Assembly: GCA_947462335.1 (NCBI GenBank)
Contig: OX381720.1
Span: forward strand, 47,790,981-47,854,980
Direction: 5' to 3'
Origin: Harmothoe impar
Taxonomy: Eukaryota > Annelida > Polychaeta > Phyllodocida > Polynoidae
Length of the DNA stretch: 64,000 bases
How positions within the stretch are numbered: the stretch's first letter is position 1; the number at the start of each line of letters is the position of its first letter. Below, piece after piece: positions 34,881 to 61,505 of this stretch. A program made the translations under genes and the position numbers. The notes under the pieces are model-generated. The model was not told where the DNA came from. It saw nothing but the letters and a program-made list of their open reading frames with translations, and ran no database searches.

Positions 34881-35527
34881 ATTTTTTTTTTCAGACAAAT
34901 ATTCCCACTTCCCTATACTCCCCCCATTGGGAGAGGGGGTCGTATCCATTAGACATGCACATGTACTGCTCTGGCTGTACATTGAGATCTCCAGGTTTAG
35001 TACAAATGCCACCTCCCTCCTCCCACCCTTACACCTGTGCACTGTTCAGTGGGGGACCTATACTCAGGGAAACCCAAATATAATTTGCCCTCCAATGGTC
35101 TCCTGTTAGGCAGATTCTACATAATTCTTCACTCAACATAATCTTCAAGAACCTAACTTCCATTGCAGAATATTTCTGGTTCAAAATAAGCCATACATTC
35201 ATGGATGCATGCAGATTTACTTACCTGCTTTATTTTAATAGCCCATGTCCATTGCTGCCTGAGAGGATTCCCTAAGTTGATGACATCACTTCCTGTGTAG
35301 GGGATTCCCAAATCAAAATCTGTGGCAGAATATAACTTATGTGGCTCCACCTGATGGTATACGCAAAAAACGCAAACTACGTTGAATCCCGGTTATTTGA
35401 ATCTCCTATACAAGATGTAGCCACATTACACTGATTCACCGTAAACTATTTGCTTTTTACAATGCTTCAATGTTTTCAGGATAACGGTGAATCACCGTAG
35501 CGTTTTACATCTATTTTTTACAGTGCA

Positions 35528-37393
35528 GCGCTCCTTCAACCAAATGCCAAGGGTGAGTTACAGCCCGTAGCATTCAGCTCATGTCACCTCAGTGCGACAG
35601 AACAATGCTACTCTCAGATGGAGAAAGAATGTCTGGCAATATGCCAGGGACTACACAAGTTTGACCAGTGGCTATACGGGAAAGCTGACATTACAGTTCA
35701 CACAGATCATAAACCACTTGTCCCGATTATGTCAAAACCACTACACAAGGCGCCTGCCAGATTGCAGCGGATGCTAATGACCCTGCAGCGCTATCGCTTC
35801 GCACTTGAGTACAAGAAAGGCACTACCCTGCTCATTGTGGACACGCTCTCTAGAGCGGCCCTGCACACCCCAGTCGACACGCCTGTAAATGGGTTTGAGG
35901 TGTTCAGGCTGGAATGTGAATCTATCTGCCGGAGCCCCAGGCTGACTGGAGAGACCGAGAAGGAGATAGTCCTACTCACCAATGCTGACGAGACCCTCAG
36001 TGCTCTTCGGGACACAATCATCAATGGATGGCCCGACGATCGTACCCTGTTGCCCAAGGATCTTAGGCCATTTTGGGGATACAGGGATGAACTGTCTGTA
36101 CTGAATGAGGCTATATATAAGGGGGAGACTGTGTTGGTGCCTCAACAGCTCCGGGCCAAAATGTTAGGCAAGATCCATGCAAATCACCTTGGGGCTGAGT
36201 CAAACTACAGAATGGCAAAGCAGGTATTGTTCTGGCCTGGAATGAGAGCGGCAATCAAGGACATGTGTGAGGCTTGTGGGACCTGTGCATTGTATGGCTC
36301 AGCCTCACAAAAGGAGCCCATGATGTCACTACCGATACCAACCAGGGCTTGGGAGCTACTCAGCCAGGACTTGTGTGCCTTTGAGGGTAAGGACTACCTA
36401 GTAACCGTGTGCCATTTCTCAGACTGGATTGAGGTAGATGAGCTGGGGGACACTCTAGCCTCCACAGTTGTAGCCAAGACCGAGGCCCATCTAGCCACTT
36501 TTGGCGCCCCAGCAAGAATACACACAGACAATGGCCCTCAATTTATAAGTAAGGACTATGCAGATTTCGCGATCAGGTATAACTTCAACCACACAACGTC
36601 ATCTCCTTATTACCCCAAGGGAAATGGCCGAGCAGAGGCGGCTGTGAAGGTAGCCAAAGGCCTACTAAAGAAATCCATGAACATCAGCCTGGCCCTACTC
36701 CTTCATCGGAACACCCCTCAATCTGGCTACACATACTCACCTGCGCAGCGCATGTTGTGTCGCCAAACACGCACCCGTCTGCCGACCTCAGACAGACTGT
36801 TGGACCCTGAGGTGGTGGACACTCGTGTGGTTCAGGAAGAGATTGAGGCTCGGAGAGTGGCCAGCAAGACATTGTATGACAGGAATGTGGTCCACCATTC
36901 CCCACTCTCAATTGGGGACTATGCCTACTTAAAGCCCCCTCCGAACAAGCGTGGTCAGCCATGGGCTTATGGGCAGGTAGTGGACTGCAAAGGACCTAGA
37001 TCATACACCCTTCAGACCGACCGTGGGACAGCTAGCCGTAACCGGGTTCATGTGCGACCAGCTGCTCCCCCACAAAAGGACCTTGGATGCGTACAAGTGC
37101 CACAGGTACTGGTACCTGGTGGCCCACCTCTGGTGAGGGCCCCAGATCAGCCAGACCTACAAGACAACCAGCTTGAGTCGCAACCTGGGGTGACAGCACC
37201 TCGCTCTCCAGTGCGGTCCCCAATGGGTCCCGCACCGTCTACTCCAAGTGTTGGTGCATCTCGGCCTGGTGCTGGTAGTGGCCCAGTTATGAGCAATAAA
37301 CTGGCCCTCGCACCAAGCCCTTCACCTGCTCGTCGTACAAGGACGAGAGACATATATCGACCAACAAAATATGATGACTACGACCTCACATAA
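35528..37393 (+). CDS. pol: Pol, 3' part: RNase H (rest) and integrase
   Basis: 621 codons open to TAA at 37,391; it lacks its own start because it resumes mid-domain after the nested transposon. RNase H carries QMEKECLA (catalytic Glu) and HTDHKPL (Asp). The integrase zinc finger follows: IHANH and CEACGTC (HHCC type). The catalytic core has the DD35E triad: QDLCAF, HTDNGPQF and GRAEAAVKVAK. The C-terminal domain has IGDYAYLKPPPNK and a Pro-rich tail, with no chromodomain seen. Integrase would join element DNA to the genome. This segment has no internal stop, so most coding damage is upstream. Confidence 0.92.
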   Translation, partial: ALLQPNAKGELQPVAFSSCHLSATEQCYSQMEKECLAICQGLHKFDQWLYGKADITVHTDHKPLVPIMSKPLHKAPARLQRMLMTLQRYRFALEYKKGTTLLIVDTLSRAALHTPVDTPVNGFEVFRLECESICRSPRLTGETEKEIVLLTNADETLSALRDTIINGWPDDRTLLPKDLRPFWGYRDELSVLNEAIYKGETVLVPQQLRAKMLGKIHANHLGAESNYRMAKQVLFWPGMRAAIKDMCEACGTCALYGSASQKEPMMSLPIPTRAWELLSQDLCAFEGKDYLVTVCHFSDWIEVDELGDTLASTVVAKTEAHLATFGAPARIHTDNGPQFISKDYADFAIRYNFNHTTSSPYYPKGNGRAEAAVKVAKGLLKKSMNISLALLLHRNTPQSGYTYSPAQRMLCRQTRTRLPTSDRLLDPEVVDTRVVQEEIEARRVASKTLYDRNVVHHSPLSIGDYAYLKPPPNKRGQPWAYGQVVDCKGPRSYTLQTDRGTASRNRVHVRPAAPPQKDLGCVQVPQVLVPGGPPLVRAPDQPDLQDNQLESQPGVTAPRSPVRSPMGPAPSTPSVGASRPGAGSGPVMSNKLALAPSPSPARRTRTRDIYRPTKYDDYDLT

Positions 37394-40744: not shown

Positions 40745-41193
40745 GTTTGAAATGCAAAATCTTTTACACCCCCCCCCCCCCCCCGGTCAAAGGGTCAAAA
40801 TGTTTTACCCCCCTTACAGGTCGAAAATTGGCGGGTGCGCGGGCCCTTTAAGGCATACCGTAAAACCTCGCGTATAAGCCGCGGCTTATGCACGAATCAG
40901 ATCGGCAGTGCGGCTTATAGGATCGGCCCATGGTCAGGGTGCGGCTTATACGCGAGTTTTTACTACTATCAGATCGCTGGTGCGGCTTATAGGATCTGTC
41001 CAAAGTCGGGGTGCGGCTAATACGAGAGTTAGGCTAACTCGCGAGGTTTTACGGTAGTAACGCGCAGGTTTTTTTGCTCAAAACAGGTTCATTTCTTTTG
41101 CCCCCCCCCCCCCCGGTCAAGGGGTCCAAATTTTTTTCAACCCTCCCCAAACCCACCACCCCACCCCTGTTGATACTAAATGATCACTCCCTT
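40745..41193. mobile_element. Family A element, right part, split by a family C MITE
   Basis: C/G-rich sequence with 'ggtcaaagggtcaaaatgtt' words, ending 'aatgatcactccc' then TTA. The expected left end is not seen. A family C unit sits in the middle. Confidence 0.5.
40857..41055. mobile_element. Family C MITE
   Basis: CCGTAAAACCTCGCGTATAA at the left (position 40,859 after TA) pairs with 'ctcgcgaggttttacgg' at the right. Internal copies of 'gtgcggcttatag' and 'tacgcgagtttttac' are present. Confidence 0.75.
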
Positions 41194-41671: not shown

Positions 41672-43965
41672 GGGGGGGGGGCAGACTCAAACCTGCAGTC
41701 AAGACTCAAGGGGTTAACATCCCCCCCCCCCTCAATAATGCCCGGCCATGGGTTGAAAATCCGTGCTTTTCCCCTAGGGCCCCACTTTTTCCTATGTGGG
41801 AGAGGTCAGGGCCTAGAAGCCATGTCTCTGGAGAGGTATAACGTTTGGAAATTATGTGTATTTAATAGATAGATCTATGATATTTAAGGTCTAACTCTTG
41901 GCAAAAAAACAAAAACAAATTGGGTGGGCGGGGGGAGGGGGACATATCCCCCCCCCCCCCCCCACCACTCTGTGACTGACAGTGACTGGTGGGGGCTGGT
42001 CAGTCTCTCTAATAGTGATGGGTTTGCTTTCTTTCTTGCGGGGTTTGCGGAATTTCGACCCCCGAGACAACGTAGGGCCTACCCCTCTTTGGAAAGATGG
42101 GGGGGGGGGGGACCAGTGTTGCCGAGATGACATTGGCACATCGGCTTTTGCCGATGTAGAATCGTAATGGCCGATGGCAGCCATAATGGCCGGCCATGAT
42201 CTCAGCTTTCCAACAGTGAATAAATTTTTCAAATATTCCTACTAGAAGCTGAGTTAGGTAGATCCAACTTGCAAGCATTTTTTTCAGTGAATTTAATCAT
42301 TTTCCAATCGATTTTGTAAGCTGTTATTAAGGAATCATCACAATCTGTATTCATTTATATGAAAAGAGGGCCCATGTGGCCTGTGTAAAAGGCAAATGGC
42401 CTGTGTAAGATCTTGCGAAACAGGCCAGATTGGCCTGTGTGCAAAAAAAGTTTTCGGCAACACTGGGGGACAATGCCTACACATTAAACAAATCAATCAA
42501 TCATTCAGTTACCATGCAGGAGTGGCTGAACGTCGATAAAGTTGGGGAGACAGCTCCCAAAAGCCAGAGGGTGTTCATTGTACTTTGTTTTTGGAGAATT
42601 AGACTTTCAAATTGGTGTATTAAAGCAGGGATATATGATTAAAGGGTTGTTTAAACATGATCCAAAGAACATTTTACATCTGGGGGAGTTTCTGAGTGGC
42701 AGTGCATTAGGCCACCTTTTGGCTCCAACTCTTTTTTTTGAAAATTTATCAAAATTTCTCGGAGGGAAAATGCCAAAAATCTTGGCGGCGGATCCGTAAA
42801 CCAAGTTAATCAAAATAAAACGGCCCTATAATGATGCATTGACATAGTATGCTGCCCTTAAAGGGTTAACAGAACGTCTTATTGATGTGTGTATATTAAC
42901 CATCAGCTCTGCGTCCACTTTGGGCCCCGTTCACCTCCGTTATTGGCCAGTTTATGCTGCATATTGACGTCCTTAGGAGGCCTTAGAATGCCTATAGCAC
43001 TCACTGACTGGCCAGCATCAATACAGCGGCTATTAACACACTACTTTATCAATCTAGGGTCCCACAAGTTGGGGCTGTATAGCAGAATATCAATATATTG
43101 CTGCGGTAAGACTGGCTATTTGCCTGCTGTGTTGGCCTGAGTAGTGACCAGCCTATAGGCCTACAGTTTGTATTTGTCCTAGCACAATGATTCAGCACAT
43201 TTCAGGTAGGGGCACATATGGGACGCTGCTCTGTGAGAACTGTGTTCTGGACTACATTCAATTATCATGCGTCAGGGATATAATGAACGCTAAGCCTCTT
43301 GGAGTATGAATGCCATGTACAATTATATAACTTATAGGGCAATAATTACTTCATGTATATCACTCTATCTGATCGCTGTGTCTGTCTATCTCCGTGTTTC
43401 TCTCTCCCTCTCTGCTATCAGACAGTGTTTGGCAGACCGCCATTTCTCACACTACATCAGTCCATATGGGCTGTGGTTTTATTGTGTGTGGTCATTAAGC
43501 ACTCGTGTGAAGAGCTGTTATGGTGTACACTTACTGCTCAAACTCTGGGGTAATGACCAACTGGAGGACGCTTAAATGCCCTGTGCACTTGACCGTTATA
43601 GCTTTAATAATGGACTAGTAGTTCATGGCATGTGGTATTATTCTTTGTGAATATATATATATGTGTGGAGCAGTCTAAAATAGCATGCTTTTTATACATT
43701 TCAGATGAGGGTCGGTCATTAGAAGGAAGGCCCATAAGCATGAGAGGAGTGAGGCTATTTATATTTCACAGACTGGAGAATATCAGGCCTCTTCAATCAA
43801 CTTACCCCAGTCAAAGAACCAAGGGCACCTTACAAACATAGACATGTGACTAAGAACCTGAGGGCTACACTGGAAGTTACTATAGTAAAGACACAGGTGC
43901 CATGCCTTTGGATTATCTAATAGTTGTACTGCATAACACAATATCAAAGCTTCTTCACCCAAAGG
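41672..43965. other. Upstream flank of the coiled-coil gene, no exon seen
   Basis: Homopolymer-rich to 42,120, then unique-looking AT-rich DNA. Near 42,840 'cccttaaagggttaac' is a family D end fragment. I see no supported exon or promoter motif. An in-frame TAA at 43,966 bounds the first coding exon's frame upstream. Confidence 0.4.
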
Positions 43966-44043
43966 TAACCAGACATTTCCCAAACAGACAGACCAGGATA
44001 TATTTGTGAAGACCGACGTAGAAGAAATCATCATCCATCCAAG

Positions 44044-44367
44044 ATGTCACAACGAGGGCGCCGGTCACGCCCTCTGGGGTCGGTACGCCGGTCACTATCG
44101 GGAAATGAAAGTATCCTTAAGCTGCCCCCTCTGACATCACCCTCACACAGTATAGACAGGTCCTACCAGGGTATCAGTGGTAATGCCTTATCAGTGCCAC
44201 CACCCAGGGCCAGCCCGGAGAGGGCAGAGCGGGCAGAGCGGGAAGAGCCACCGAAGACCAAGACGCCGCTGTTGTCGGGACGTCAGACGTCGTCGTCACG
44301 GTCCGCGGGCAGTAAGAGTGACGACAGCGCCAACCTGGAACTGAAGAAGGACCTGCGGGAGGCTCTG
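44044..44367 (+). CDS. Exon 1 of coiled-coil gene
   Basis: 108 codons from ATG (MSQRGRRSRPLGSVRR) to LKKDLREAL, phase 0, donor GTATGT. The exon is GC-rich compared with its flanks. It contains an Ala-Glu-Arg repeat (ERAERAEREE). Beyond the donor the frame continues open into the intron for about 74 codons, but the protein character changes. Confidence 0.78.
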
Positions 44368-47300
44368 GTATGTACTACTGATATGTCTCATTTATTAACC
44401 ACTGAAACAAACAAAAAGATGGGAACATTTTTACTGATATTATCATATGTTTCCAATAGTATGACCTTGTTTAAAGCTGTCGTAACCCGAAAAAGAAAGT
44501 TTTTAAAAAATGAAAAGAAAGAAGGGAGATTGCCCTACTCCCCCCATTACTCCTACAGATTATACAATAAGCTCATTATCCCCTTTCCATGATGTTCTAA
44601 TCAAACAAGGGACCCACTGAAGATGAATATATGAAGTAAGTCATGAGCATGCTGCATGAAGATATATTCTGAGTTTATATACAAAAACCTACAGATTTAT
44701 CGTTTGAATAGACAGCTCACTTGATGTATTGCCCTACAAGCAGTAAGCATGTATCACAGAATGATATATACGTATTCCACAGTGGGAAAGAATCTCACCT
44801 TATTTGAGAATGGATGACTTAATATTGTGATGCACTGCCATTTCACTTAGACTCATGATCTTATTCAACTTTCAACCGAGTGTGTCTTTGGATTGCTCAA
44901 ATGTCCCTTTTGGTGTCTTTAAAAAACAAAAAAAGTATGGTGTACTTTGTATCTGCATGACCTGTGGTATCTGTCTACTGTCTGTGACAAATGTAATCGG
45001 TAATATAGCATCATGTGGCTTATTTCTGGTAGAGATTGAGTCATTACATTTTTTTGATGGCACAAAGAAAATATTTACATCGTCTACAATCTATTGATAT
45101 TTGCTTGGGGAAAATACCAATATAGATGATGCACGTGTATTGATAAATATACTGGTAGTGGTACTTCATGGAGCTTCATTGGCAGTCTGTAACCAATATG
45201 TATCCCTTTGGGGACAGCTGAGTGTTTACTGCACTATGCACCCTGGTGGGTAAATTGGCCAAACTGCATTCATGCATCATACCATCGCGATGGGGCTGAT
45301 GCACCCCGAATGGTTGGCATGATAAAGTACCGGCAAATTACTTGCGGGCATTGCATTGGTGCATTATAATGACCAATGGACATCATACCTTCAATCTTTA
45401 AAGATTTATCATATGAATACACGCCCATAGTGTATCATCCATATCATAGCATTAGGTCTTAATTGCTACTTCTATTGCTGTATATAGGACTTTAGCCATT
45501 GATCCCCATGTTTGATAAAGCAATAGGGCGTTGATCGATGGAGTAAATGTTAGTCAGGAATTTATAGAACCATATAAATAGACCTCGCCTAATGTATATA
45601 CATGTACACATATATTAACCCGTTTAGAGCTGCATAGGGCTTAAATGGGATATGTCCTTGGTCATCATGATGCAGAAATGCAGCCATGGCCAGTCTACTC
45701 GCCAAGGCTGCATCATGCCGACCCTTTGAGAGTGTATCAGCGTTGCATATAACCACCCCAAATGGCTGCATTCATACATCATGACGACAAAGAACATAGC
45801 ATATTAATTAAATCAGTAAATGGTTAACTGTAGGAAAATCAAGTACCACCATTGGTGTACCGACCTAGTCTAATGGGGAGTGTGTAGGGAGACGTAATGA
45901 GGACCGCATGTCAATGTGTGTATAAGGGGGAGACAGAGTACATACCAAATGGATATATTATCTTGGCCCTTTGAATGCCCAGTCAATAAGGATTTGCTGG
46001 ACTCATGCAGAAATAATCGAGCCTTGTCGCACTACTTGGAATTGCTTTTAGGTGTGTGGAGAAATAATCGTTGAAATGGTTTATATAAATGATTTTATGT
46101 AATATCAACAACTGATAGACATAAATAATAAGATGCCCAAAAGAGTATAAAGAACATTGAGCACTTAGTTATCAGATTGTAGTCTCATGCTACTGTATTG
46201 TCCTCGCCATGTTTGTATGCTTGTATGCTTAAAAAGACCATATTTTGATACACATTATCCCTTACTGTTCAATTGTAACAATACAGGTAGTTTTCAGAAA
46301 AGGAACAAATCAATCCTACCCGCTGTACCCACAAAAATATGTTTCATTGAGGAAAAAATTACGGAGCATTTTGCGTGGATGAATAATAATTTTGGCATTT
46401 CTACCCCTCCCCCCCCCCACCTCCCCCTGATATCGGGTTCGGTGGAAACTTGTTATAGACATGGGAAATCCAACTCCCCCACGTCAAAGGCTAATACTAA
46501 TTGCTAACCATGTTTTGGTAGGCAGTGAATATAGCAACTTTTGTTAAGTGCTCAAACACTGGCGCCATGGGGCCTGGGGGCAGAGATCAAACAACGGCAT
46601 TGCCGGGGCACACAACCATATAAAGCAGCCATGGTAGGGGTGTGGGGGTGGGCTAGTCCTTTAAGGACAGGGTACTGCTTTAATGTAGTAAGGTCTTATG
46701 TCGTTTTGATTCAGGATTGTAGTACTGGTGAGTAACTCATCAGTGGTGCATTCACGTATCCTGCTGACTCTACATGCTTGATACACTGACTCTCTGCACC
46801 CTAGAAAGGCAGTGAATTTAAATTTTAAAAATAAAATAAAATATATGATGCAGCAATGCAAAGCGAACAGGTTACTCTGTAGCACTGTGACAGCATGTTG
46901 GTGCATCACGATGCCAAGCACTTTGAGGCATCATCTAGTCCTTAAAGGGTTAATATTTCCTAATAAACCCACGTTTAATATGTATCATGTGCCAATCCCC
47001 ATGATCTATAGAATGTGCTGACCTAGAGAAGCCATCCACATATAGCCTACCTGTATATAGACTAGTAATTGGCTAGAAGGTTAAGCCATATGCTGGAAGG
47101 TGTTACCTAGGAAGGGTTAACTTTCCTTAAGCCCTTTGTGCAAAGCTTAAACCCAGGAGGTGTTGGCAGGCCTGGACTATTCTTAATGGTCTTGTTGACA
47201 TAGTGTGTGGCTTTCCATGTTTTCTCCCGCCAGAACCCTGACCGGACTCTTTGAGTTAACCCTTTAAGGGCCGCATAGTGTGTAATGCCCTTTAATGTAT

Positions 47301-50300
47301 CATGTCCTTTGGCGCAGTGATGAATGAATGTCGTCCTTGCGAGTAACTCAACAGTGGTGGATTCAATCATCATGCCAAATCTACAGAGTTGATACACTAC
47401 CGAAGGGTTTGCATTACACATGAACGCTACCCTAACAAGTAGATTCTCCAAGGCTACATTCTAATTTCATGTATCATGACGATAAGGGACATGGTACATG
47501 AAAGTACTATGTAGCCCTCACAGTATTAATGAGGCTCATGTTGGACTGGGTAGTGTATACTTTGGGCCGACACCAGGTCACACCACACAGAGAGCCTATA
47601 TGAATGAAAAGAAACATGATAGCCTATAGACTTATTGAATAAATGTTTAAAAGCAAATTCAGGAGAAGCCATGTCAATTTACTAATTCAATGCCGGAGCG
47701 ATTATTCTTTATCAGGAGTTCAGATTCAGATATAGGATGATTCTAACAAACACATCTAGTCTAGATCATGCAATGTATTTGTCTTACACCTTCCTTCAAA
47801 AGTCTTGCTCAAGGGATTTCCTATAAAAAATAGGGAGGTATGGCCGCTGCACTGTTTGTGTCTAAAGATTGTTGTAATAAATGGTATATAGCAGCATTAT
47901 ACTATCCACTCTTGGTTGCGCCATCTTACTTAAGTAGAACTAATCCATGCTACGACTCTACCGATCAGTTCCCAAATAACCTCTACGTGTATAAGGCACA
48001 GATAAAGCAACTATGGAGATTCATGTTTACTGTTAGATCCCATCCTGGATGTGGCTTCTTTGAGAGCCCATGTTGAAGCCATTACGTGACTTCTTTTTGA
48101 GCCCATTACGAAGCTATGATGTGACACCTGTTGGTCTCCATATTAAAGCCATGATATGGCTTCTGTTAGAGTCCATGTTGAGGCCATGACGTAGCTTGTG
48201 TTAGAGCTCATGCTGAAGCAGTGATGTGGCTTCTTGTAGGACCCATGTTGAAGCAGTGATGTTGCTTCTTTGAAAGCTCATGTTGAAGCTGTGACGTGGC
48301 TTCTTGTAGGGCACATGTTGACGCCATGATATAGCTTCTTGTAGAGACCATGTTGAAGCTGTGATGTGGCTTCTTGTAGAGACCATGTTGAAGCTGTGAT
48401 GTGGCTTCTTGTAGAGACCATGTTGAAGCTGTGATGTGGCTTCTTGTAGAGACCATGTTGAAGCAGTAATATGGCTTCTTGTAGAGCACATGTTGAAGCT
48501 GTGATATGGCTTCTTGTAGAGTCCGTGTTGAAGCTGTGATGTGGCTTCTTTTTGAGTCCATGTTGAAGCTGTGATGTGGCTTCTTTTTGAGTCCATGTTG
48601 AAGCTGTGATGTGGCTTCTTTTTGAGTCCATGTTGAAGCTGTGATGTGGCTTCTTTTTGAGTCCATGTTGAAGCTGTGATGTGGCTTCTTGTAGATCCCA
48701 TGTTGAAGCTGTGATATGGCTTCTTGTAGAGCCCATATTGAAGCTGTGATATGTCTTCCTTTTGAGTCCACATTGAAGCTGTGATGTGGCTTCTTTTTGA
48801 GCCCATGTTGAAGCGGTGGTGTGGGTTCTTGTGGAGCTAATGTTGAAGCTGTGATGTGGCTTCTTTTTGAGTCCATGTTGAAGCTGTGATGTGGCTTCTT
48901 TTTGAGTCCATGTTGAAGCTGTGGTGTGGCTTCTTGTAGAGTCCGTGTTGAAGCTGTGATGTGGCTTCTTGTAGAGCCCATGTTGAAGCTGTGATGTGGC
49001 TTCTTGTAGAGACCATGTTGATGCTGTGATGTGGCTTCTTTTTGAGTCCATGTTGAAGCTGTGATGTGGCTTCTTTTTGAGTCCATGTTGAAGCTGTGAT
49101 GTGGCTTCTTTGAAAGCCCATGTTGAAGCAGTGATATGCCTTCTGTTAGGACACATATTGGAGAGCCCATATTTAAGCTATGATGATTTAAGACGTCTAA
49201 TCTAACACACACATTGAAGCCATGAAGTGGATTCCTTTATAATGTAATCCACAATTGAATCATGATGTAGCTTAGTTTTAGAAGCCACAGCAAAAGCATG
49301 GAATGTTTACCACAATTGAAATCATGGTAAGCAATGACGTTGCTCCTTATCAAAGACATTTTTGTAGCTTCTATCATAAACTAGCATGCATGACATTTAT
49401 CTTAAATAAGGAGCATTTTTCAGTGTCCATAACTATCAAATGTATTGGGTATTGTATTTTGTGGGAGCACCCTGTTTCAGTTCCATACTCATGGAGAGCA
49501 TATTGTTGGATATAGTTGCACAAGTACATGTAGTTAACTTGATAGTCCTAATCCAGCTAAACGAGGGATTACTCGCAGTGAGCGACACAATGCAGATCGC
49601 CGTAAGTTACCACAGATAAGGCGAGTCCCCCCGCTGCCCGTGGGCACTTTGACCGGAATAAATGAGATCGTGACTAGTAGATAAACCTGTCGTTATATTT
49701 ACAGTATCAAGTAATTACACTTGATAGGTGTCGTGTTTTGTTTGCATTATTGACATTGGTTGACCCTATTTGTGTTATGGATTATGGCTAAAATGGTTTC
49801 AGACCTGGGAAATCCCTAATTGCAGCATTTTCCTCAGAAAACTTATTATGATAAAGGTTACCCAGGAAGTGCCGTTTTTAACCCAAGAATCGCAGCTATT
49901 AGAACAAACTAAAGAATGTATGAGATTAATCTTGTTTTCGCCTTCACATTATTCATATCTAAAGTGTTTCATTTCATTCTGTGAGTATAACATATATTTA
50001 TATCTTATCATAAAAAGCCTGCCTACTATGAACAAAGCGTTGAATGAGAGTACGTCCCTGGCTCCGTTGAAGACAAACAGTATGATAGTGAGTCATTAAG
50101 AAGGTATTATTTATTGTAGAATGGAGATACAGAATTAACGGTAGGTCACAATGGATTGTGTGAATTTCCCATCTCCTACACCATACATCCAACACTTACA
50201 AATGTTTCTTTATATTCATTTAATTAAAAAACCTCAAGTAGATCCAAATGTCCAAATTATCCTGCTCATCCTTAACCATTCCTGTATCATCCCTGTGGTC

Positions 50301-53300
50301 CTAACTTCGACTCAAACAATTCAGAATGCCTAAAGTATGTTCCTCAACTTACTGTGTTTGAAAAAGCCACACACAAAGGATGCTCTGCATGAGATGCATG
50401 GAACTACCTTCCTGCGTGGTTGCTCATACGTGTTGAAATTGTTATCAACATGATTCCTGGTCTGATGTGGATTCTGAATCAAATATTAACCGATCCTTGG
50501 TCAATAATCATATTGTGCTGATTTCCAATATGAATTCAAGAGTGTCCCCTGTAACACATTCTGTCAGGACTGAGTTAAGGAATGCCATTGTGTGGTAACT
50601 CATTTGTACTGTAAGGTTTATAACTGTGACATGATGTGATATCCTACACTGCCATGACTAAGGGACCTATTATGGACATTTTCTAGATCAGAATATTGTA
50701 TATTTTTCAACGAATTGTATATCAATATATATTATTCATATCTTGGTACATACGTGTATGTTCAAACCCCAATTGCAACTGAATCTCCTCATCAAATGTC
50801 TAAATGAAATTAATATAGATAATCTTAAATCTTTCAGTCTCGTGAGAAGCAGCTGAAGGCACAGCTGGCGGCGTTACAGACCGCGATAGAAGGTCTGAAG
50901 ACTGAACTAGAGGAAAAGGCACGCGCCAACCAGGCACTTCAGGAGCAGATAGAGAAACTCATAGCCCAGGTAAGGTAATATGGTAGTATTATGAAGATGT
51001 GTCTCAGGTTTCAGTTGTTCAGTTTTGGTGGCTTTGGCGGTGCCATCCGCTTGGCATTGTGTCCACTAGAGGTGTCACGGTACTAATCGGCCCAGAAAAC
51101 CTAGGACAGCCAAATAGTCCCTACTAAAAACGGAATTCTAGTGGATATAATCAGTGCTAGGAGACCTTATTTTTGACTGGGAGTAATAATAGGCATACCA
51201 GAAGATGGGCAATGCCTGGTTTAAAAAAAGTTTTAAAAAGTTTTTGGTATCCATGGTAACCAAGGGGTCACGCTTTGAGGTCAAAGTCAAGGTCGCAGGT
51301 CGGTGCGGCACTTGAAAAATTGATCATATTCAGACCATGCTTTTTCCATGGCAACTAGCGCAAAATCTAATCTGACTCCCATATTGACGGACATTTTTAA
51401 AAGATCGGAAATGACGTCAGCTTTTGTTTAAGGCGTCATTTATGAACGCCATCAAATTTTGAACCACATTTGGAGCCACTTGATAGTGAAAAAGAGGAAA
51501 ATATTAGAACATCACCGTGCCAATTAGTACCGTGACACCTAGAGAGCGCCCTGGGAGCGTTGACCAGAATTTAGATTCTGTAATGTGCAAGAGGAAGGAA
51601 ACAGAAAAGGTGTATTGGAAGATCAACTCTGCAAGATGTCTTTTTTTTAGCCTGGAAGACATATAAAACTTGAGCTAGAAATCACTCTTAGTGATATATA
51701 CACTTGTCATGCCTTCATCTGCCTACTTATAAAAAGTAAATTGCAGAAAAGTAAAGACATATGTACGATGTCTTTCAGGAAGCCCATTACAAGGAGCTCT
51801 ATGAGAAGGAGGTCATTGAACATAAAAAAACGAAGGAACAACTCTCCAACAGTGAAGACTTGGTCTTCGCACGAGACCGGGAGATATCTCAACTCAAGCT
51901 GGCACACGAAGAGAAGGTCAAAGAATTGAATATCAAGGTGAGACCTCAACTCTCTCATTCCTATCCGAAAGAAACGAGACTTTTCTGTTAGTCTGTGTCC
52001 TTAAGCAGAATAGGGAAATGTGCCATTAATATAACTATGATGTTGTTCTTCTGCCATTGATCCTGAATACATGTAAAACTGAATACAAGAAATACCAGAG
52101 ATTGAAATTACACTTCGTCTACTTTCAGATGGAAAAGCGAGTGTTAGAAGTTGAGAAAGCAAAGGACGCAGAAATTGCTACAAGGGACGAAAAGTTGAAG
52201 CGATTAAAAAGCCAAATGGCCGATGCATTGCGAGGAAATTCCTGGTACATAGAAGTTCACTTTCCTAAAATCTTAAACTCTAGTATCGTATATATCACTA
52301 TCAACTTGATATTAAGAAAACCTTTTTTTCTTTAAAAGTCATCTTGTATCAAAGATCAAAGTGTACTACAGAAAAAAAACTTACAGGTATAATGATAAAT
52401 AAACATTTATTGGTACAAGAAATGTATTACCATAATGACTTGACTCCCCTATTTCCTACAGGGAGAGGCAACAACAGTTGGACGAGTTGAGTAAAGAGCT
52501 GACCCGGGCTCAGGAGGAGGCAGATATGCTGCGCATGAAAATGAAAGCGATGGCTAGAAATGGTGCTAAAACTGTAAGTGTATTCTAAATATTGGATTTT
52601 TTTACGGCAAATGCGCTTTTATGAAGTGTACAATCGTGGGATGTCAATGTTGCTTACTGAAATTGTGATTGCATTACAATGTAGTAGTCTCCATTTGTAG
52701 ACATCAGCAACCGAGGACCGTAGCTGTTAAAGGGCCGCATAGTGCTTTAATATACATGTGCTATGCCCTTTGACGTCATGATACATGATACATCAGGGTT
52801 GACACTGTCAGGGGAAATATTTTTTGTTCCAGGTCAGGGAAATGTCAGGGAATTGCAGATTTTTTGGCAAAATCTCAGGGAAAATATTTTGTCATGGAAA
52901 ATCTTTGAAATACCAAACAAACTAACCTGTTTTCTTTGAAAAGCCTGTATTTCACTATGATTTTAAGGGAGAAAAATGTCTAAATCCTCAAAAAGAAGGG
53001 GGTAAAATGTGTGCACGCATGCGATACACAAAACTCATTGTTAAATAATGACCACTCACTAACTAAAAAAAAACGAGTGCATATTCATAGTTGGAGGGCA
53101 TTTAAAAACATTGGTTTTATGTCGCGATTGTCAGGGAAATTTGATATAATGTAAGGGAAAAGTCAGGGAATTTAAAACTGCCTTGTCAGTGGCAACCCTG
53201 TACATTCATGCATCATGGTAGCCTTTCAGGGGTGCATCACCTCCGTATGGTTGGCATCATGCAGCACTGGCGAGTTACTCTCCAAGAATGCTTCCATGTA

Positions 53301-56300
53301 TCATGACGATAAAGGACATAATGCATTAAAGGCACTATGATAACTTTCATAATTATAGGTCATAGGTCATCAAAGATTGATTTTGAAATGTTGTTTCTTC
53401 AGTCACCCTCATCAGCAAAGAAGGTTTGTAATTGAGCGACGCTCAAACCTATTATTTGCATTTTTTTTATGTTCATCAAATTAATTAATCTACTATGTTC
53501 GTAATATAATTGTAGAATGATAAACGAAAGACTAACAATTTGATAGTCATAATATGTTTGTCTATTCTCAAGGTTTTACTAAAAGTGTCCAATAGCTAGT
53601 TGGATGTCTGTTCTCAAATGCATGATGTGTGTTTTGTATAGCTAGTAAGGATCAAGCAACACGTCCCCAGTAACAAATTTAACATACCATTTTACCTGCA
53701 CACAAGGAAACTAAGGATTCCCACACTAGTAACAATAGTCAGATTCTTCTTCGCGACAGAAAACATTCTGGTGACACAGGAGAGGGTGACGTCACATCCG
53801 GTGGCCAGATTCGGCGCCAAATTCGAATGGAGAAGAAGCACAGCGCCCACAACAGCAGCTCTCAATCATATTTGGAGGAATCTAACAGGTAAGGATACTT
53901 TATATATGATTTATTTTACACATATTTGCACAGTTGAGAAATATCTAACCATTGATATTGAAAATTTTCCTTCAGATGGCCGAAAATGTGACCGAAAATG
54001 TGACCGAAAATCCGCCGGTGGGCGAAAATTGGGGATTTTCGGAAATTGGGATGAATGGTCATCCACATGTTTCTAATTTCTCAAATGTGCAATTATAGTT
54101 CAGTTTTCACAATAATATGGATTTTGTCATCCAGTTATAGTGGAAAATTGGAGTTTAGATTGTGTAGAGCTTAGTTGCTGTTAGGGGCTGGCATGATTCA
54201 GCAAGACCAGTCATCCATCTTGGATTTCTGACTGAGTCACTGATTTATGTTGGCTTTTTATTTGTTATGTTGGCTCACAGTGCAGTACTGCTGCTTCATT
54301 TGTTGAGGAATGTTTCAATAGCGAAACGAGCCTTCATAAGGAATAAAATTGTGATGGGATAAACTCATATCTGCAGAGATAGAAATTTATCCTATTATAC
54401 ACTGTAGATCTCTGTTTTATTAGTGAATACACTTTTAAAATAAAGAACCAGGAAGGACTTACCACTGTCTTATGCATGGTCAAAGACAGAATAATATCAA
54501 CTACTACCTGTCATAACAGCTTGGCAGACTCTAGATATTGGTTGAAGTCAAGACACTTAAAGCTTTGCTTGCTACTTTGTAGTTGACACCTCAGTTATTC
54601 CTTTATAACTCAGTTATAGAAGAATGACATTTGAGGTTGTTCTCCACTCATACAGACTTGAGTGAGGTGAACTGTCAAGTCAGTGTCAGGTGTGTCTTGT
54701 TGTACTTTGTACATGTTTGGACCAGTCCTTACCAAGACATATACCTTATGCCCAAAATTTCTTTGAGGCATTAAATAACTCAGTTGTGTTGATACAGATC
54801 CACACTGAGTGCTTGTGTTGAATACACAAGTTTACCCATACCTTATGCCGAAAAATTCCTTGAGTTAGGCATTTAAGAAGTTTGTGTTGTTGTGAAATGA
54901 AAACACAAAGAGACTTAACTGGTCCACCTTTTTTAGGGTCTCAATTATGTGCTTAGGGTTTGTGACTGGTAACACAAAATACCTATACCTTATGCCGAAA
55001 ATTTCTTTGGCCTTGTGTTTTAATCCCCACCTTAAAACACTATTAGCACACATGTCTCTTTGATTTGAACATCAAGATGACTTAACTCATGTGGAGGTAC
55101 CTTGGGTTTGGACTAGTTTCCAAAAAGACCCACACCTTATGCCCAAAAATTCCTGGGTTTCACGTCACAGACGTCGCTGTCAGTCACGTCATAGACGTTG
55201 CCTCTGTCAATCACGGCGTAGACGTTGCAGCTGTCAATCTTGTCATAGACGTTGCTTCTGTCAATCACATCATAGACGTTGCGGCTGTCAATCACGTCAT
55301 AGATGTTGTAGCTGTCAATCACGGCATAAACGTTGCTGCTGTCAATCACGGCGTAGACGTTGCAGCTGTCAATCACGGCGTAGACGTTGCAGCTGATCCT
55401 CATGTAGGAGACGCTCGCGTCGCAGACGTGGCCGCTGGCGCTAGCGTCCCAGACGTGGCCACTGGCGCTCGCGTCCCAGACGTGGCCGCTGGCGCTCTCG
55501 TTCCAGATGTGGCCGCTGGCGCTCGCGTCCCAGACGTGGCCGCTGGCGCTCGCATCCCTGACGTAGGCGATGTTGCTCGCATCCCAGACGTAGGCGATGT
55601 TGATCACATTAATGGTCTCACGTTAATGATGCTCTCATTGATGGCGATCTTGTTGATGCCAATCATGCCCTAGACCTAGCCGCTGACACTTGATACTAGC
55701 TGGCGCACATTCAGTCTATGTTAGGGATGTCGCAGACATAGCCGCTGTCGCTCAAGAGAGTTGTAGGCGCTGGTGCGCACGTTGTAGACGTTGCAGCTGT
55801 CAATCACGTTGTAGACGTTGCAGCTGTCAATCACGTTGTAGAACTTGCAGCTGCCAATCACGTTGAAGACGTTGCAGCTGTCAATAAGGTCATAGACGTT
55901 GCAGCTGTCTTTCACGTCGTAGACGTTGCAGCTGTCAATCACGTCGTAGACGTTGCAGATGTCAATCACGTTGTAAACGTTGCAGCTGTCAATCACGTTG
56001 TAGATGCTGCAGCTGTCAATCACGTTGTAGATGTTGCAGATGGCTTTCACATCGTAGACGTTGCAGCGGATAATCACGTCGTAGATGCTGCAGCTGTCCA
56101 TCACGTCGTAGACGTTGCAGCTGTCACTCACGTTGTAGACGTTGCAGCTGTCAATCACATTGTAGGCTTTGCAGCAGTCAATCACGTTGTAGGCGTTGCA
56201 GCTGTCAATCAAGTTGTAGACTTTGCAGCTGTCAATCACGTCGTAGACGTTGCAGCTGTCAATCATGTTGTAGACATAGCAGCTCGCATCCCAGACGTGG

Positions 56301-59300
56301 CCGCTGGCGCTCTCGTTCCAGACGTGGCCGCTGGCGCTCGCGTCCCAGAAGCAGGCGATGTTGCTCGCATCCCAGATGTGGCAGCTGTTGCTCACATTAA
56401 TGGTCTCACGTTAATGATGCTCACATTGATGGCGTTCTTGTTGATGCCAATCATGCCCTAGATCTAGCCACTGACGCTTGATACTAGCTGGCGCACATCC
56501 AGTCTATGTTAGGGAGGTTGCAGACATAGCTGCTGGCGCTCATGTTGGAGGCATAGATGCTGGCCTCGATATCAGCTGGCGCACATTAAGACTATGTTCT
56601 TCTAGGACTTCGCAGATGTAGCTGCTGGCGCTCACGTCTGAGGCGTAGCCGCTGACGCTCACATAAAATACATAGCCGCTGGCGCTCAAGAGAGTTGTAG
56701 CCACTGGTGCGCAAGTTTTAGACGTTCCAGCTGTCAATCACGTTGTAGACATTGCAGCTGTCAATCACGTTGTAGACGTTGCAGCTGCCAATCACGCTGT
56801 AGACGTTGCAGCTGTCAATAAGGTCATAGACGTTGCAGCTGTCTTTCAAGTCGTAGACGTTGCAGCTGTCAATCACGTCGTAGACGTTGCAGCTGTCTTT
56901 CAAGTTGTAGACGTTGCAGCTGTCTTTCAAGTCGTAGACGTTGCAGCTGTCAATCACGTCGTAGACGTTGCAGCTGTCATTCACGTTGTAGACTTTGCAG
57001 CTGTCAATCACGTCATAGACGTTGCAGCTGTAAATTATGTTGTAGAATTTGCAGCTGTCAATCACGTCATAGACGTTACAGCTGTCAATCATATCGTAGA
57101 CATAGCAGCTGTCAATCACGTCATAGACGATTGCATGTCAAATCGTCGTAGACGTTGCAGCTGTCAATCACGTCGTAGATGTTGCCGCTGACAATCACGT
57201 CGTAGAAGGTGCAGCTGTCAATCACGTCTTAGACGTTGCAGCTGACAATCAGGCCGTAGACGTTGCAGCTGGCCATCAGGTTGTAGACGTTGCAGCTGAC
57301 AATCAGGTCGTAGACGTTGCAGCTGCCCATCACGTCGTAGATGTTACAGTTGACAATATACTCTTAAGTATCCAATTGTCTAAGCCCTCATCCACGTCAC
57401 AGACGTAGCCGCTGTCCGCTTTTGTATTTGGTTTGGACTAGTTTCCGAAAAGAAAAGACCCACAAATTTGGATCACTTAAGAGTTGTGGATACTTGAGTG
57501 CACTTTACCTGGTTAGGGTTTTGTACCTCTTTGTTTTAGGGTATCATTCAGTTGCAGCTGTCAATCATGTTGTAGACGTTGCCGCTGTCATTCATGAAGT
57601 AGACGTTTGCACCTGTCAAGCAAGTCGCAGATGTTGCAGGTGTCAATAACATTGTAGACATTGCAGCTGTCAATCACGTCATAGACGTTGCAGCTGCCAA
57701 TCATGTTGTAGACTTTACCGCTATCACTCACGATAAAGACATTTGCAGCTGTCAAGCAAGTTGCAGCTGTCAATTATGTTGTAGATGATATAGGTGTCAC
57801 TCAGGTAGTAGCTATTGCAACTGCCAATCATGTTGTAGACGTTGCAGCTGTAAGTCGCACATGTTGCAGATGTCAATCACGTGGTAAATGTAGCAGCTGT
57901 GAATCACATTTGTTGATGATGCAGCTCTCTCTCATGTTGTAAACGCTACAGCTGTAAATTACGTGGCAGACATTGAAGCTGTCAATCATGTTGTAGATAT
58001 TGCAGACGGCATTCTATGGCGTAGATATTACAGCTGTCAATCACGTCGTAGACGTTGCAGCTGTCAAACACGTAGACCTTGCAGCTGTCAAACATGTCGT
58101 ACACGTTGCAGCGGTCAATCACGTCATACATGTTGCAGGTGTCAATCACATCGAACACGTTGCAGCTGCCAATCATGTTGTACACGTTGCAGCTGTCAAT
58201 CACGTAGAAGATGTTGCAGATGTCAACCATGTCATAGACGTTGCAGATGTCAACCATGTCGTAGACATTTCATCTGTCAATAACGTCCTAGACGTTGCAG
58301 CTGTCAATCCGCCGGCAAACATGTGATGTCAATCAAGTAGTAGACGTTGCAGATGACATTTATATTGTAAACACGTCAGCTGTCAATCACGTCGTACACG
58401 TTGCAGCTGTCAATCACATCTTAGACGTTGCAGCTGTCAATCACGTCTTAGAAGTTGCAGCCGTCAACCAGGATGTTGCATCAGTCTATAACGATGTAGA
58501 TGTTGCAGCTGTTAAACACGTCATAGACCTTGCAGCTGTCAAACATGCCGACACGTTGCAGCTGTCAACCACGTTGTACACGTTGCAGCTGTCAATCATG
58601 ACGTACACGTTGCAGCTGTCAACCACGACTTTGGAGGTTTGTCGTTTCCACCGCTTGCTTTCGGAAAAGGGCAGGGCTTTTGGCACTGTTAACGCTGCCA
58701 GATGTGCGTTGTAGGTTTTAGTGAAAAACCTTGACAACGGGAAGACCATGGGCACCCACTATTGGGTGTGCAGGGCCGTCCGCACCGACTATCGAAGGAA
58801 TCCTCCTTCTCCCAGATATAACAAGTTCTGAGACATTATACTGGTGTTCAGCATGTTCCAGCGTTGGGGTGCCAATGAAGGCTTGTCCACCCAGTTCTTG
58901 GGATTCAAGCTAACGATACTGATTCTGCTGGTGTCGGGCCAAAGAGGCCAGGTCATCCCTGCACTTGATCTCCGCAATCTGACTTGGCTGGATTCGGGGT
59001 CTGCGCATTTCGTTCTGAAGGGTCTGATGAAAACAGCGCATACGGGGGGAACCCCTCAAAGAACTGGTCCTGGAACCGTTCCACGAGGAGGAGACTCTGT
59101 GCGTCGTCTGTGCCCTGAAACGTTACGTGCGGGTCACGGAGCCAGCCAGGTTGGACAAGGAAGGGGGAAGGAAACACTCGCTCTTCTTGTCCTTCCGCAA
59201 GCCATTTGGCGAGATTGGGCAGGACTCATCAAAGCGATGGGTCCTTGCGGTGTTTTCCGCAGCTGGGGTGGACACCAGGGTATACCGAGCTCACTCCACC

Positions 59301-61505
59301 AGGGGTGCCAGCACCTCTGCGGGAGGGAGACTCGGTGTATCGACTGCTGTTTTGCTTAGGCATGGGTCTTGGAAAGGTGCCAAGACCATGGCTAAGCACT
59401 ACAACAAGCCTATCGAGAACCCCAAGCCTCCCAAGACGCTAGCCAGGATCCTCCTGGAGGACTCAATCGAGTAGCTGGGAACAAAATTTTCAGAGCCTTT
59501 TTGGGGGAAAAGACACACCTCAAAAGGGGAGAATTTTGGCCCTTTTGCCGTAACGATAGTTTGTATGAACTCTATTGGCTGATCATAGTCATAAGCCTTA
59601 CTAGAGGCAGCAGTTATCTGTATGTGATAAACACTTTTTCTATGTTGGACAATAACACTGCCACAGCTGTGGTGAACTGTATGGCAGTTATGCCTTCTTT
59701 GCTATATAGCAAAATGTCATGCAACCTAGTCAAAACCATATCACAAGGCAATAGAACATCACCTTTAGGTGAAATAAAGTATCTATTTTCCGTTATCCTA
59801 TATGAGAAGTTACAGTCCTTTATGGGAGAGTAACATTATGGGAAATAAGCAGTGAATCTAGCTGAACTTTGAAGTCTCCTGTGTCACCAGAATGTTTTCT
59901 GTCGCGAAGAAGAATATAAGATTAATCGAGTACTTACCATTTATATAAGTATGAAGATTAATCGTTGTTCTTCGAGAGACAGATAAACATATCTGTTGAG
60001 TACACAGGCCCACCCATCCATCCCTAGGATGAAGAAGATTACTACTAGCGGTATAATCTCTCACCTACTCATGAGGGTGCTATTTAGACAAAGTAAAAAG
60101 AGCACTACTGTGTACTATTTCCAGATGTTTTACTTTCAGCAAAAGATTCACTGCATGTGGGCGCTAATCTGACCACCGGATGTGACGTCACCCTCTCCTG
60201 TGTACTCAACAGATATGTTTATCTGTCTCTCGAAGAACAACGATTAATCTTCATACTTATATAAATGGTAAGTACTCGATTAATCTTATATTAACAATTT
60301 ACTCTCAGCAGAACCTTGGCTATCACCCGTAAATTCTCTCGTATAGGCCGCGGCTTGTATCCGAGTGTGACTTATACGGGACTAGCACATCCTGGTACCT
60401 CAGGTAGTCGGGGGCTAACCCCCTATCTCTTATCAGGCTAATCCCCTCCCCTTACACCTAGAACAAAGGGACTGATAAGAAATTCATCCATAGGATCGGC
60501 ACAGTGTCAGGGTCCGGCTTATATGCGAGTTTTTGCCGCTATGGAACAGTACTAAACTCCCCATAATCAGATAGCCAGGGCGGCTTATAGGATCGACCCA
60601 AAGTCAGGCTGCGGCTTATACGCGAGTTAGGCTTATACGCCAGAATTTACGGCATATAGCGTACTGCGTATGTCCATGGTATTTAACTGTGGATGATCAG
60701 ACAGGGATATACTTGTATTGGATTTGGGGGGGCACCTTTTTTTTTAATAAGGCCAAAAACAAAGTTGTGTTCAGGTAACATGGCCCCAAAAAAATAGGGT
60801 AGGTAGGTCGATTTTTTTTTTTTACTAAATTTTGTTAAGGATTATGAGACCAAAATCTTCCCCTTTTTCGCATAATTTGAGTAAAAAAAACCTAATTTTG
60901 GTAGAAAAAAACCCACGAAAATGCCTTCCCAAAAAAAATAAAAATTGGGTAGGGCCAAAAAATTTGGGTCGCTAGGGATACCTGAACACAACTTTTGTTT
61001 TTTGGCCTAAAGGCAACACTGAGCAGCCAAACTGAATACTTGTATACATATTGCTATCAATCATAACCTGTGATCATTATATGACTGATGGACAGTTAGT
61101 AATTGACACTGATGACGTGCACTGTCACTACCTACACAGCTTATAGTCGGCCAATTAACTGTTGTCCCGCATGTTGAGTGGTCTGGCAATGGTCAAGGAC
61201 ATAGGGAAATCCTAAATGCCACAGTATCCATGGATAGCGCATCAAACACCAATTACACATCATGACCATGAATCTTGCACTGGCCCACCTGAACAATAAA
61301 TATGCCTTTAACAAATAGCTTTGTTCTATTGCAGGGAGTCGCTGGCTGCGCCAACTGTGATGCTCTAGGTTCCCGGATTCAACATTTAGAACGCACAATC
61401 ACAGAAAAGGACAAAATTATACGCGACCTCAAGGGAATCAGTGCCCGGTTCGAAAAGCAACTGACTCAGAAGGAAAACTTAGTAAAATTACAAAACGGAA
61501 AATGA
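44044..61505 (+). CDS. Coiled-coil protein gene, seven coding exons, predicted 344 residues
   Basis: Joining 44,044-44,367; 50,838-50,969; 51,779-51,937; 52,129-52,244; 52,462-52,573; 53,403-53,423 and 61,335-61,505 gives one open frame of 344 codons plus TGA. All introns are GT..AG. The product starts with a basic, Ser/Pro/Arg-rich, probably disordered region (residues 1-95). A long heptad-type coiled coil follows (about 96-280, Glu/Lys/Gln-rich). A short linker holds a CANC (CxxC) motif, and a last coiled-coil helix ends the protein. I see no signal peptide or membrane segment, so an intracellular scaffold or cytoskeletal role is possible but not shown. I do not recognise the family. The start is the first ATG after an in-frame TAA 78 nt upstream, though a further 5' exon cannot be excluded. 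No AATAAA lies within about 400 bp of the stop. Confidence 0.8.
45615..45827. mobile_element. Family D MITE in intron 1
   Basis: TTAA at each edge, start CCCGTTTAGAGCTGCATAGG, inverted end 'cagtaaatgg'. Core 'agtctactcgccaaggctgc' as in other copies. Confidence 0.6.
46651..46953. mobile_element. Family D MITE in intron 1, partial left end
   Basis: The right end 'agtccttaaagggttaa' is typical. The left end 'tagtcctttaagg' is altered, without TTAA at the expected place. Core contains 'ggtgagtaactcatcagt'. Confidence 0.5.
47256..47529. mobile_element. Family D MITE in intron 1
   Basis: TTAA-CCCTTTAAGGGCCGCATAGT at left; right end 'actatgtagccctcacagta' then TTAA. Core 'gcgagtaactcaacagtgg' and 'catgtatcatgacgataagg'. 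Confidence 0.65.
48060..49160. repeat. 35-bp minisatellite in intron 1, about 30 units
   Basis: The unit runs 'catgttgaagctgtgatgtg' then 'gcttcttgtagagac' or 'gcttctttttgagtc'. Measured period is 35 bp (for example 48,351, 48,386, 48,421). Two unit variants alternate in blocks. Units at the edges are degraded. All three minus-strand frames stay open because the unit has no stop in any phase; I do not treat these as genes. Confidence 0.95.
50838..50969 (+). CDS. Exon 2 of coiled-coil gene
   Basis: 44 codons, acceptor CTTTCAG, donor GTAAGG, phase 0 both sides. Starts SREKQLKAQLAALQTAIEGL; a clear heptad pattern. Not delimited by its own start or stop. Confidence 0.85.
51070..51540. mobile_element. 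471-bp TIR element in intron 2
   Basis: AGGTGTCACGGTACTAATCG and the complementary right end 'ttagtaccgtgacacct' are inverted repeats of about 22 bp. No coding sequence. Superfamily not certain. Confidence 0.7.
51779..51937 (+). CDS. Exon 3 of coiled-coil gene
   Basis: 53 codons, acceptor TCTTTCAG, donor GTGAGA, phase 0. Peptide EAHYKELYEKEVIEHKKTKE onward, charged coiled coil. Confidence 0.85.
52129..52244 (+). CDS. Exon 4 of coiled-coil gene
   Basis: 116 nt, acceptor CTTTCAG, donor GTACAT (weak), leaving two bases of a Trp codon completed by exon 5. The resulting junction, GNSWERQQQLDEL, keeps the helix going, which supports the weak donor. Confidence 0.82.
52462..52573 (+). CDS. Exon 5 of coiled-coil gene
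   Basis: 112 nt, acceptor TTTCCTACAG, donor GTAAGT. Completes the split codon and ends in phase 0 with ARNGAKT. Confidence 0.85.
52728..53360. mobile_element. Family D MITE split by another element, intron 5
   Basis: The left part begins 'gttaaagggccgcatagtgc'. The right part ends 'aaaggcactatgataac'. The two halves are separated by a 407-bp insertion. The right core has 'actggcgagttactctccaag'. Confidence 0.55.
52794..53200. mobile_element. 407-bp nested element with CAGGGTTG ends
   Basis: CAGGGTTGACACTGTCAGGG at left and complement CAGGGTTGCCACTGACAAGG at right. TACAT flanks both sides (52,789-52,793; 53,201-53,205). The interior repeats 'tcagggaaa'. The CAGGG termini resemble hAT ends, but the 5-bp duplication is shorter than the usual 8, so the assignment is open. 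Confidence 0.7.
53403..53423 (+). CDS. Exon 6, candidate 21-nt microexon
   Basis: Seven codons (SPSSAKK) between acceptor TTGTTTCTTCAG and donor GTTTGT, phase 0 on both sides. It could be skipped without changing frame. Support is the strong acceptor and preserved phase only. Confidence 0.5.
53743..53818 (+). repeat. Left inverted terminal repeat of DIRS-like element
   Basis: Starts ATTCTTCTTCGCGACAGA and includes a TGACGTCA palindrome (53,787-53,794). Similarity to the right terminus (inverted) fades at about 53,818 ('cagattcggcgcc'). Confidence 0.8.
53889..54098 (+). CDS. Possible leader intron and short first ORF of the DIRS-like element
   Basis: A donor-like ACAG/GTAAGG at 53,889 and acceptor TTTTCCTTCAG ending at 53,975 would remove 87 nt. 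They place an ATG (53,976) immediately after the junction. That ATG opens 40 codons (MAENVTENVTENPPVGENWG...) ending in TAG at 54,096. It may be the remnant of a Gag-like ORF1. No family match is recognised. Confidence 0.35.
54099..55159. other. DIRS interior, non-coding, with spaced repeats
   Basis: Four copies of 'accttatgcc(c/g)aaaa' lie at about 54,742, 54,840, 54,987 and 55,134, with related words around them ('tttggactagtttcc' at 55,108 recurs near 57,434). No RT-like frame is found here. Confidence 0.6.
55160..58627. repeat. 27-bp minisatellite inside the DIRS-like element
   Basis: The dominant unit reads 'gttgcagctgtcaatcacgt' followed by 'cgtagac'. A GC-rich variant ('gccgctggcgctcgcgtccc' plus 'agacgtg') fills 55,385-55,600 and 56,275-56,360. 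Because 27 is a multiple of three, long frames appear on both strands (Asp-Val-Ala-Ala-Val-Asn-His type on plus). Larger duplicates exist: 55,605-55,760 recurs at about 56,395-56,550, and 55,746-55,810 at about 56,680-56,745. A 190-bp non-array island lies at about 57,355-57,545. Units toward the right end are more diverged. Confidence 0.95.
58628..59474 (+). pseudogene. DIRS-type tyrosine recombinase, truncated and disabled
   Basis: The YR enzyme inserts circular element DNA by strand exchange through a tyrosine. Visible blocks: an N-terminal core-binding piece (HRLLSEKGRAFGTVNAARCA, about 58,650-58,711), then PPSPRYNKF. The catalytic domain has LLVSGQRGQVIPALDLRNL (first Arg), RAHSTRGAS (the HxxR box) and AKHYNKPI (the nucleophile Tyr). 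Breaks: TAG at 58,712, TGA at 58,829-58,831 and a one-base frameshift at the G run near 59,043-59,048. The 5' side is cut off by the minisatellite at about 58,627. The final frame ends in TAG at 59,472. Motif order and the HSTR...HYNKP pattern match retroelement recombinases (DIRS/Ngaro) rather than phage integrases. Confidence 0.85.
59475..59874. other. DIRS 3' non-coding segment
   Basis: 400 bp between the recombinase stop and the internal complementary region. A 110-codon open frame at 59,501-59,833 shows no recognisable motif. Probably untranslated. Confidence 0.5.
59875..60008. repeat. Internal complementary region (ICR) of DIRS-like element
   Basis: 59,875-59,915 is the exact reverse complement of 53,743-53,783 (41 bp). 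59,913-60,008 is the exact reverse complement of 60,197-60,292 (96 bp). They overlap by the trinucleotide AAT. In DIRS-1 the equivalent region templates completion of the ends and circularisation. Confidence 0.9.
60173..60292. repeat. Right inverted terminal repeat of DIRS-like element
   Basis: Contains the inverted 30-bp core with TGACGTCA (60,183-60,190) and a right-only extension ending 'gattaatcttatatt'. A GGTAAGT sequence (60,267-60,273) resembles a splice donor and is mirrored in the ICR. Confidence 0.85.
60327..60652. mobile_element. Family C MITE in intron 6
   Basis: Left 'ccgtaaattctctcgtatag' and right 'gcttatacgccagaatttacgg' (ends only) are inverted. The interior has 'gcggcttataggatcg' copies and inverted 'ctgataag' words. 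It sits just 35 bp right of the DIRS end. Confidence 0.7.
60751..61007. mobile_element. Family B MITE, complete (TAA duplication)
   Basis: GGCCAAAAACAAAGTTGTGT at left and complement GGCCAAAAAACAAAAGTTGT at right, flanked by TAA (60,748-60,750; 61,008-61,010). Inside are 'gggtaggtaggtcg' and 'gggtagggcc'. Confidence 0.8.
61335..61505 (+). CDS. Exon 7 (terminal coding exon) of coiled-coil gene
   Basis: 56 codons plus TGA after acceptor TTCTATTGCAG. Starts GVAGCANCDALGSRIQHLER, giving a CxxC pair and a final coiled-coil helix. Confidence 0.82.
   Translation, partial: GVAGCANCDALGSRIQHLERTITEKDKIIRDLKGISARFEKQLTQKENLVKLQNGK

Follow-up and report, generated by a model that had tools for sequence, protein, structure and literature searches.

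The 64,000-nt stretch of DNA analysed here (the window) holds, at 53743..60292 on the plus strand, a 6550-bp element bounded by ATT at each end, whose ends are set by an internal complementary region (ICR). We consider it probable that this is a DIRS1-derived non-autonomous retrotransposon, for which reverse transcriptase and recombinase would have been supplied in trans, and which entered its predicted host intron fairly recently. Taken alone, the element is an ordinary, well-preserved case of a known structure; what is added to the first-pass annotation, which had described a DIRS-like element, is that this copy is disabled and carries a minisatellite, while its ends remain perfect in cis.

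Element ends and internal complementary region

A repeat search of the 64-kb window showed 53743-53783 and 59875-59915 to be exact reverse complements of each other (41/41 bases), as are 60197-60292 and 59913-60008 (96/96). The two internal segments form the left ICR (59875..59915, plus strand, 41 bp) and the right ICR (59913..60008, plus strand, 96 bp), which overlap in the trinucleotide AAT (59913-59915). In a direct check, the reverse complement of 59875-60008 was identical to 60197-60292 followed by 53746-53783 in 134/134 bases, with ATT as the common trinucleotide. The two perfect complements sharing AAT, as first proposed from inspection of the letters, thus match the joined ends at every base. 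With independent bases assumed, exact inverted pairs of these lengths are expected in 64 kb about 1e-15 (41 bp) and 4e-48 (96 bp) times by chance, and the 96-bp pair 60197-60292/59913-60008 exceeds every other exact inverted pair of the window in length. None of the 14-mers of 53743-53822, 59875-60008 and 60155-60292 was found elsewhere in the window beyond the element. The window does contain another perfect inverted pair, of 61 bp, that has no DIRS look, but the notion that the matches are due to chance, or to an unrelated foldback or hairpin, can practically be dismissed: two separate perfect arms join, overlapping by 3 nt, in the order predicted for DIRS, beside a DIRS-like recombinase, and the chance expectations are negligible.

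The termini also carry inverted repeats, exact over 31 bp and about 70-80% alike in their outer part. The left conserved repeat (53774..53804, plus strand, 31 bp) is the exact reverse complement of the right one (60173..60203, minus strand, 31 bp); the repeat search extended this to an imperfect inverted pair of 49 bp and 88% identity (53774-53822/60155-60203). The left divergent repeat (53743..53773, plus strand, 31 bp) matches the inverted right end in 27 of 34 aligned columns, and its right counterpart (60204..60241, minus strand, approximately 38 bp) was delimited by the same alignment of the termini. The alignment between the left terminus and the inverted right one starts at about 60241 and runs inward, which leaves an overhang of approximately 51 bp at the right (60242..60292, minus strand), complementary to the ICR only. 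A right terminus some 50 bp longer than the left had been anticipated, in good agreement with this extension. A palindrome, TGACGTCA, which we take to be a CRE/ATF-like site, lies in both conserved repeats (53787-53794 and 60183-60190), occurs four times in the whole window and might be part of the element promoter. The 7-mer ACACAGG at the border of the divergent and conserved repeats is found in each terminus and in each half of the ICR; it falls short of the at least 10 conserved nucleotides reported at this border for DIRS1-like elements in the portion of PMC3266345 available to us.

Both element ends read ATT and the junction AAT, that is, NTT-type ends identical to the junction; such ends are given for 23/28 DIRS1-like elements in the part of PMC3266345 consulted. 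The flanks read GTCAG/ATT...ATT/AACAA, in which ATT itself may be read as a 3-bp target duplication, and no 7-mer target duplication was common to the two 20-nt flanks. The element ends are fixed, up to which ATT belongs to the element and which to the target. The earlier statement that they are fixed to the base therefore stands in so far as the ICR sets both ends, and is softened by the ATT at either end, which leaves this choice. The predicted empty site is GTCAG-ATT-AACAATT, and the predicted empty allele around it reads ...ACAATAGTCAG-ATT-AACAATTTACTC...

Comparison with known DIRS elements

Judged by its termini and ICR, the element is one of the DIRS1-like elements. Inverted termini, ICR, 3-nt junction, right extension and recombinase remnant are all as described for this type, which upholds the interpretation of the ICR as a circular-junction template. 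DIRS-1 of Dictyostelium discoideum likewise has inverted termini, a right extension, an ICR with a 3-nt junction and a tyrosine recombinase, according to the available sections of PMC5633606 and PMC3266345; the latter gives the conserved terminal repeat of DIRS1-2 as 304 bp, as against 31 bp in the window element, which is without working genes.

The closest likeness, in sizes and end letters (not sequences) compared with Table 3 of PMC3266345 (Piednoel 2011), is to four mollusc elements, LgDIRS1 and LgDIRS3 of Lottia gigantea and AcaDIRS1 and AcaDIRS2 of Aplysia californica, which share the ATT ends and AAT junction. In the order divergent repeat, conserved repeat, right extension and ICR, the table gives 35, 31, 48 and 39-86 for LgDIRS1; 30, 36, 49 and 42-86 for LgDIRS3; 36, 32, 48 and 45-88 for AcaDIRS1; and 34, 36, 48 and 44-88 for AcaDIRS2. 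Accordingly, a right extension of 48-49 bp in these four compares with approximately 51 bp here, conserved repeats of 31-36 bp and divergent repeats of 30-36 bp with 31 and 31 bp (left), and ICR halves of 39-45 and 86-88 bp with 41 and 96 bp, the right half being longer in the window element. At 6550 bp it is also longer than these elements (4680-5808 bp), though gag and pol were not found in it, and its minisatellite and broken recombinase set it apart from them. A fifth mollusc element, LgDIRS2, is not close (34, 141, 46 and 46-67, with AAT ends). In the same source, the conserved repeat measures at least 62 bp in 22/22 non-mollusc elements with a value, that of CaspDIRS1 being listed as not determined.

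A PAT-like or Ngaro-like element would also encode a tyrosine recombinase and show no evident target duplication. Such elements carry split direct repeats A1, B1, A2 and B2, as described in the available portions of PMC3266345 and PMC9210276, whereas the ends of the window element are inverted and complementary to an internal region; no split direct repeats joining the element ends were found in 12 direct families, among the matches listed. We regard this assignment as very improbable.

A recombinase remnant and its relatives

What remains of a tyrosine recombinase gene lies at 58619..59474 on the plus strand and lacks the N-terminal part; the homology extends from 58619 to 59471, in two frames. 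The remnant is interrupted by stops at 58712 and 58829 and by a frameshift near 59046, and tblastn (E 1e-3) detected in the element no counterpart to residues 1-91 of P0006 or to residues 1-32 of P0001. It retains the R, K, HxxR, W and Y positions typical of tyrosine recombinases, and these are invariant in P0001, P0002 and P0004. The proposed recombinase gene of the right type beside the ICR is thus recognisable by its catalytic positions, but as a truncated remnant with two stops and a frameshift rather than as a gene.

Eight related recombinase proteins (P0001-P0008) were found in the protein collection. The nearest, P0001 (91% identity) and P0002 (88%), are both unnamed; they share the catalytic positions of the window recombinase but have unbroken frames. 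The more distant relative P0004 matched Phage_integrase (PF00589) at E 2.8e-4, below the family cut-off, and a PHROGs integrase at E 0.0026. P0001 and P0002 gave no convincing profile match, P0001 reaching only PF13495 at E 0.073, and no family was found when pieces of the window were tested against Pfam, PHROGs and NCBIfam. Assignment to the tyrosine recombinases is therefore suggested by the motifs together with the weak integrase matches of P0004. A PDB sequence search returned a match to Crov539 at E 8.9e-7, which was disregarded since its 23 residues are too short; the corresponding profile search gave RanBP2 at E 1.3. The AlphaFold model of P0001 (mean pLDDT 48.7, pTM 0.42) was left out of fold searches. 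In viral contigs, P0001 yielded one candidate stretch and no relatives, and a 26-base stretch of the terminal repeat had no matches; a locus found there with query A2 (L001, 86 candidates) was dropped as weak (32% over approximately 63 residues), and the same query yielded 78 candidates and no relatives in genome contigs.

Missing gag-pol and a minisatellite interior

When all six reading frames of the element were compared with Pfam, no family matched even at E up to 1, gag, reverse transcriptase, RNase H and methyltransferase included. Since Pfam misses the element's recombinase too, this result is fair evidence against a conserved reverse transcriptase and weaker evidence against gag. Rfam gave no matches in the window. 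As read from its sequence, this copy cannot be autonomous, and because gag and pol were not found we name it a DIRS1-derived non-autonomous copy, not a working element. By eye, a possible splice donor (CAG/GTAAGG) and acceptor (TTCAG/ATGG) precede a short open frame at 53880-54075, perhaps a relic of a gag leader.

The region in which gag and pol would be expected, about half of the element, is occupied by a minisatellite of approximately 3.5 kb (55150..58627, plus strand), an array of approximately 129 units of 27 bp with no coding signature. Alignment of the units to their consensus revealed 77 inserted and 70 deleted positions, and variation by codon position (units against consensus) was 0.178, 0.173 and 0.216 at all sites and 0.145, 0.173 and 0.145 outside CpG. 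The 27-bp unit is open on both strands, which accounts for the long open frames in the array. A coding function was considered and rejected: outside CpG, third positions did not exceed both others in any of the three frames. A search with the 239-aa minisatellite frame against proteins gave nothing at E 0.001 (7997 candidates sharing most words were scored). According to the repeat search, segments from the left side of the array reappear inside it (57427-57453 and 57534-57555), and one piece of 261 nt has a second copy 788 nt further on, at 90%.

No description of a DIRS element with a minisatellite interior was found in the portions of the literature searched, for example in those of PMC3266345, PMC2685390 and PMC5633606, nor is one described in the sections covered of PMC9210276, PMC8498967, PMC12477816 and PMC8969392.

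Age and possible movement in trans

According to the published DIRS model, the transcript of such an element would lack its outermost ends; the ICR would serve as the template from which these are restored, and the cDNA would circularise, leaving a single ATT at the junction. Tyrosine recombinase would then recombine the ATT of the circle with a genomic ATT, with no target duplication. For the present element we propose in addition that reverse transcriptase and recombinase would have come in trans from an intact relative, and that the copy may have entered the host intron fairly recently. In the published model the element ends are rewritten from the ICR in every cycle, from which we infer that the identity between ends and ICR should behave like that of two LTRs. 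In the window copy, 0/134 positions differ between the ends and the ICR (95% upper bound 2.2%).

A relative of the recombinase remnant bears on whether its loss preceded the insertion. The alignment of P0005 to the window stays in one frame across the recombinase frameshift (213 aa, 94.4%), and with the shifted frame as the query P0005 was the best of 4 matches among 138 candidates. The frame change in P0003 is located at a different place from that in the window. Over the 107 codons compared, the private changes number four in the window copy, one of them the stop at 58829, and three in P0005. A further claim, that P0005 shares the stop at 58712, was dropped, as protein letters cannot decide it. 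The simplest reading of these sequences would be that the window copy and P0005 descend from one recombinase-dead lineage, which suggests that the element was probably mobilised in trans by an intact relative after its enzymes were lost. Given the missing pol, such movement appears to be the likelier history, with P0005 as the one relative on which it rests. The shared frameshift could instead be a recurrent change in a run of G, and P0005 could be an allele of the window copy.

The main alternative is that a complete, autonomous DIRS1-like copy was inserted and decayed in place, with gag-pol deleted and the minisatellite arising or being inserted later. The stop at 58829, being private to the window copy, fits this course and indicates that part of the damage may postdate the insertion; no sibling carrying this deletion was encountered, nor a second full copy or an empty site, and minisatellites are able to grow fast or to be captured ready-made. 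Against it stand the 0/134 differences between ends and ICR although the units of the array have strongly diverged, and the presence of several recombinase lesions, one of them common to P0005. Depending on codon position, units and consensus disagree at about 17-22% of sites, which makes it unlikely that the array diversified only once the element was in place; an array that was already old could, however, have reached the element afterwards by insertion or shuffling. Decay in place is hence unlikely, yet it is the alternative that deserves most weight.

With the non-autonomous, trans-mobilised reading still preferred for this copy, a more far-reaching proposal is that a whole non-autonomous DIRS1 lineage has been spreading although all that it has kept, around a minisatellite, is the termini, the ICR and a dead piece of the recombinase. 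This we advance tentatively, the balance lying marginally against it. If true, the lineage would constitute a natural deletion experiment, suggesting that DIRS circularisation and integration require no more in cis than termini and ICR. The loss of the enzymes, with termini and ICR kept free of differences, hints at the parts needed in cis, and the element could be the pattern for a small reporter element.

Modelled host gene and surroundings

The element is contained in the last intron (53424..61334, plus strand) of a predicted gene and has the same orientation as that gene. The gene model comprises seven exons on the plus strand, at 44044-44367, 50838-50969, 51779-51937, 52129-52244, 52462-52573, 53403-53423 and 61335-61505, which form one open frame for a coiled-coil-looking protein, with GT-AG introns and agreeing phases. 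The placement inside a gene intron, part of the original description, is thereby supported on the basis of this model. No Pfam family reached its cut-off in the three plus frames of 43501-53500. The first intron of the modelled gene holds a 35-bp minisatellite of approximately 31 units (48048-49149); on the minus strand all three of its frames stay open for 200-340 aa. The motif CGGCTTATA is shared by related repeats at 60490-60628, immediately right of the element, and at 40896-41030.

The 61-bp perfect inverted pair mentioned above (20481-20541/20847-20907) has arms separated by some 300 bp and encloses another inverted stretch; it looks like a foldback or MITE-like element, not a DIRS. A Ty3/gypsy-like element is located at 28220-37393, with a gag-like frame that has no Pfam match, a reverse transcriptase frame at 29549-30850 and an RNase H and integrase frame at 35501-37393; the latter two are approximately 4.6 kb apart, a distance that includes a 58-bp tandem array at 34194-34882.
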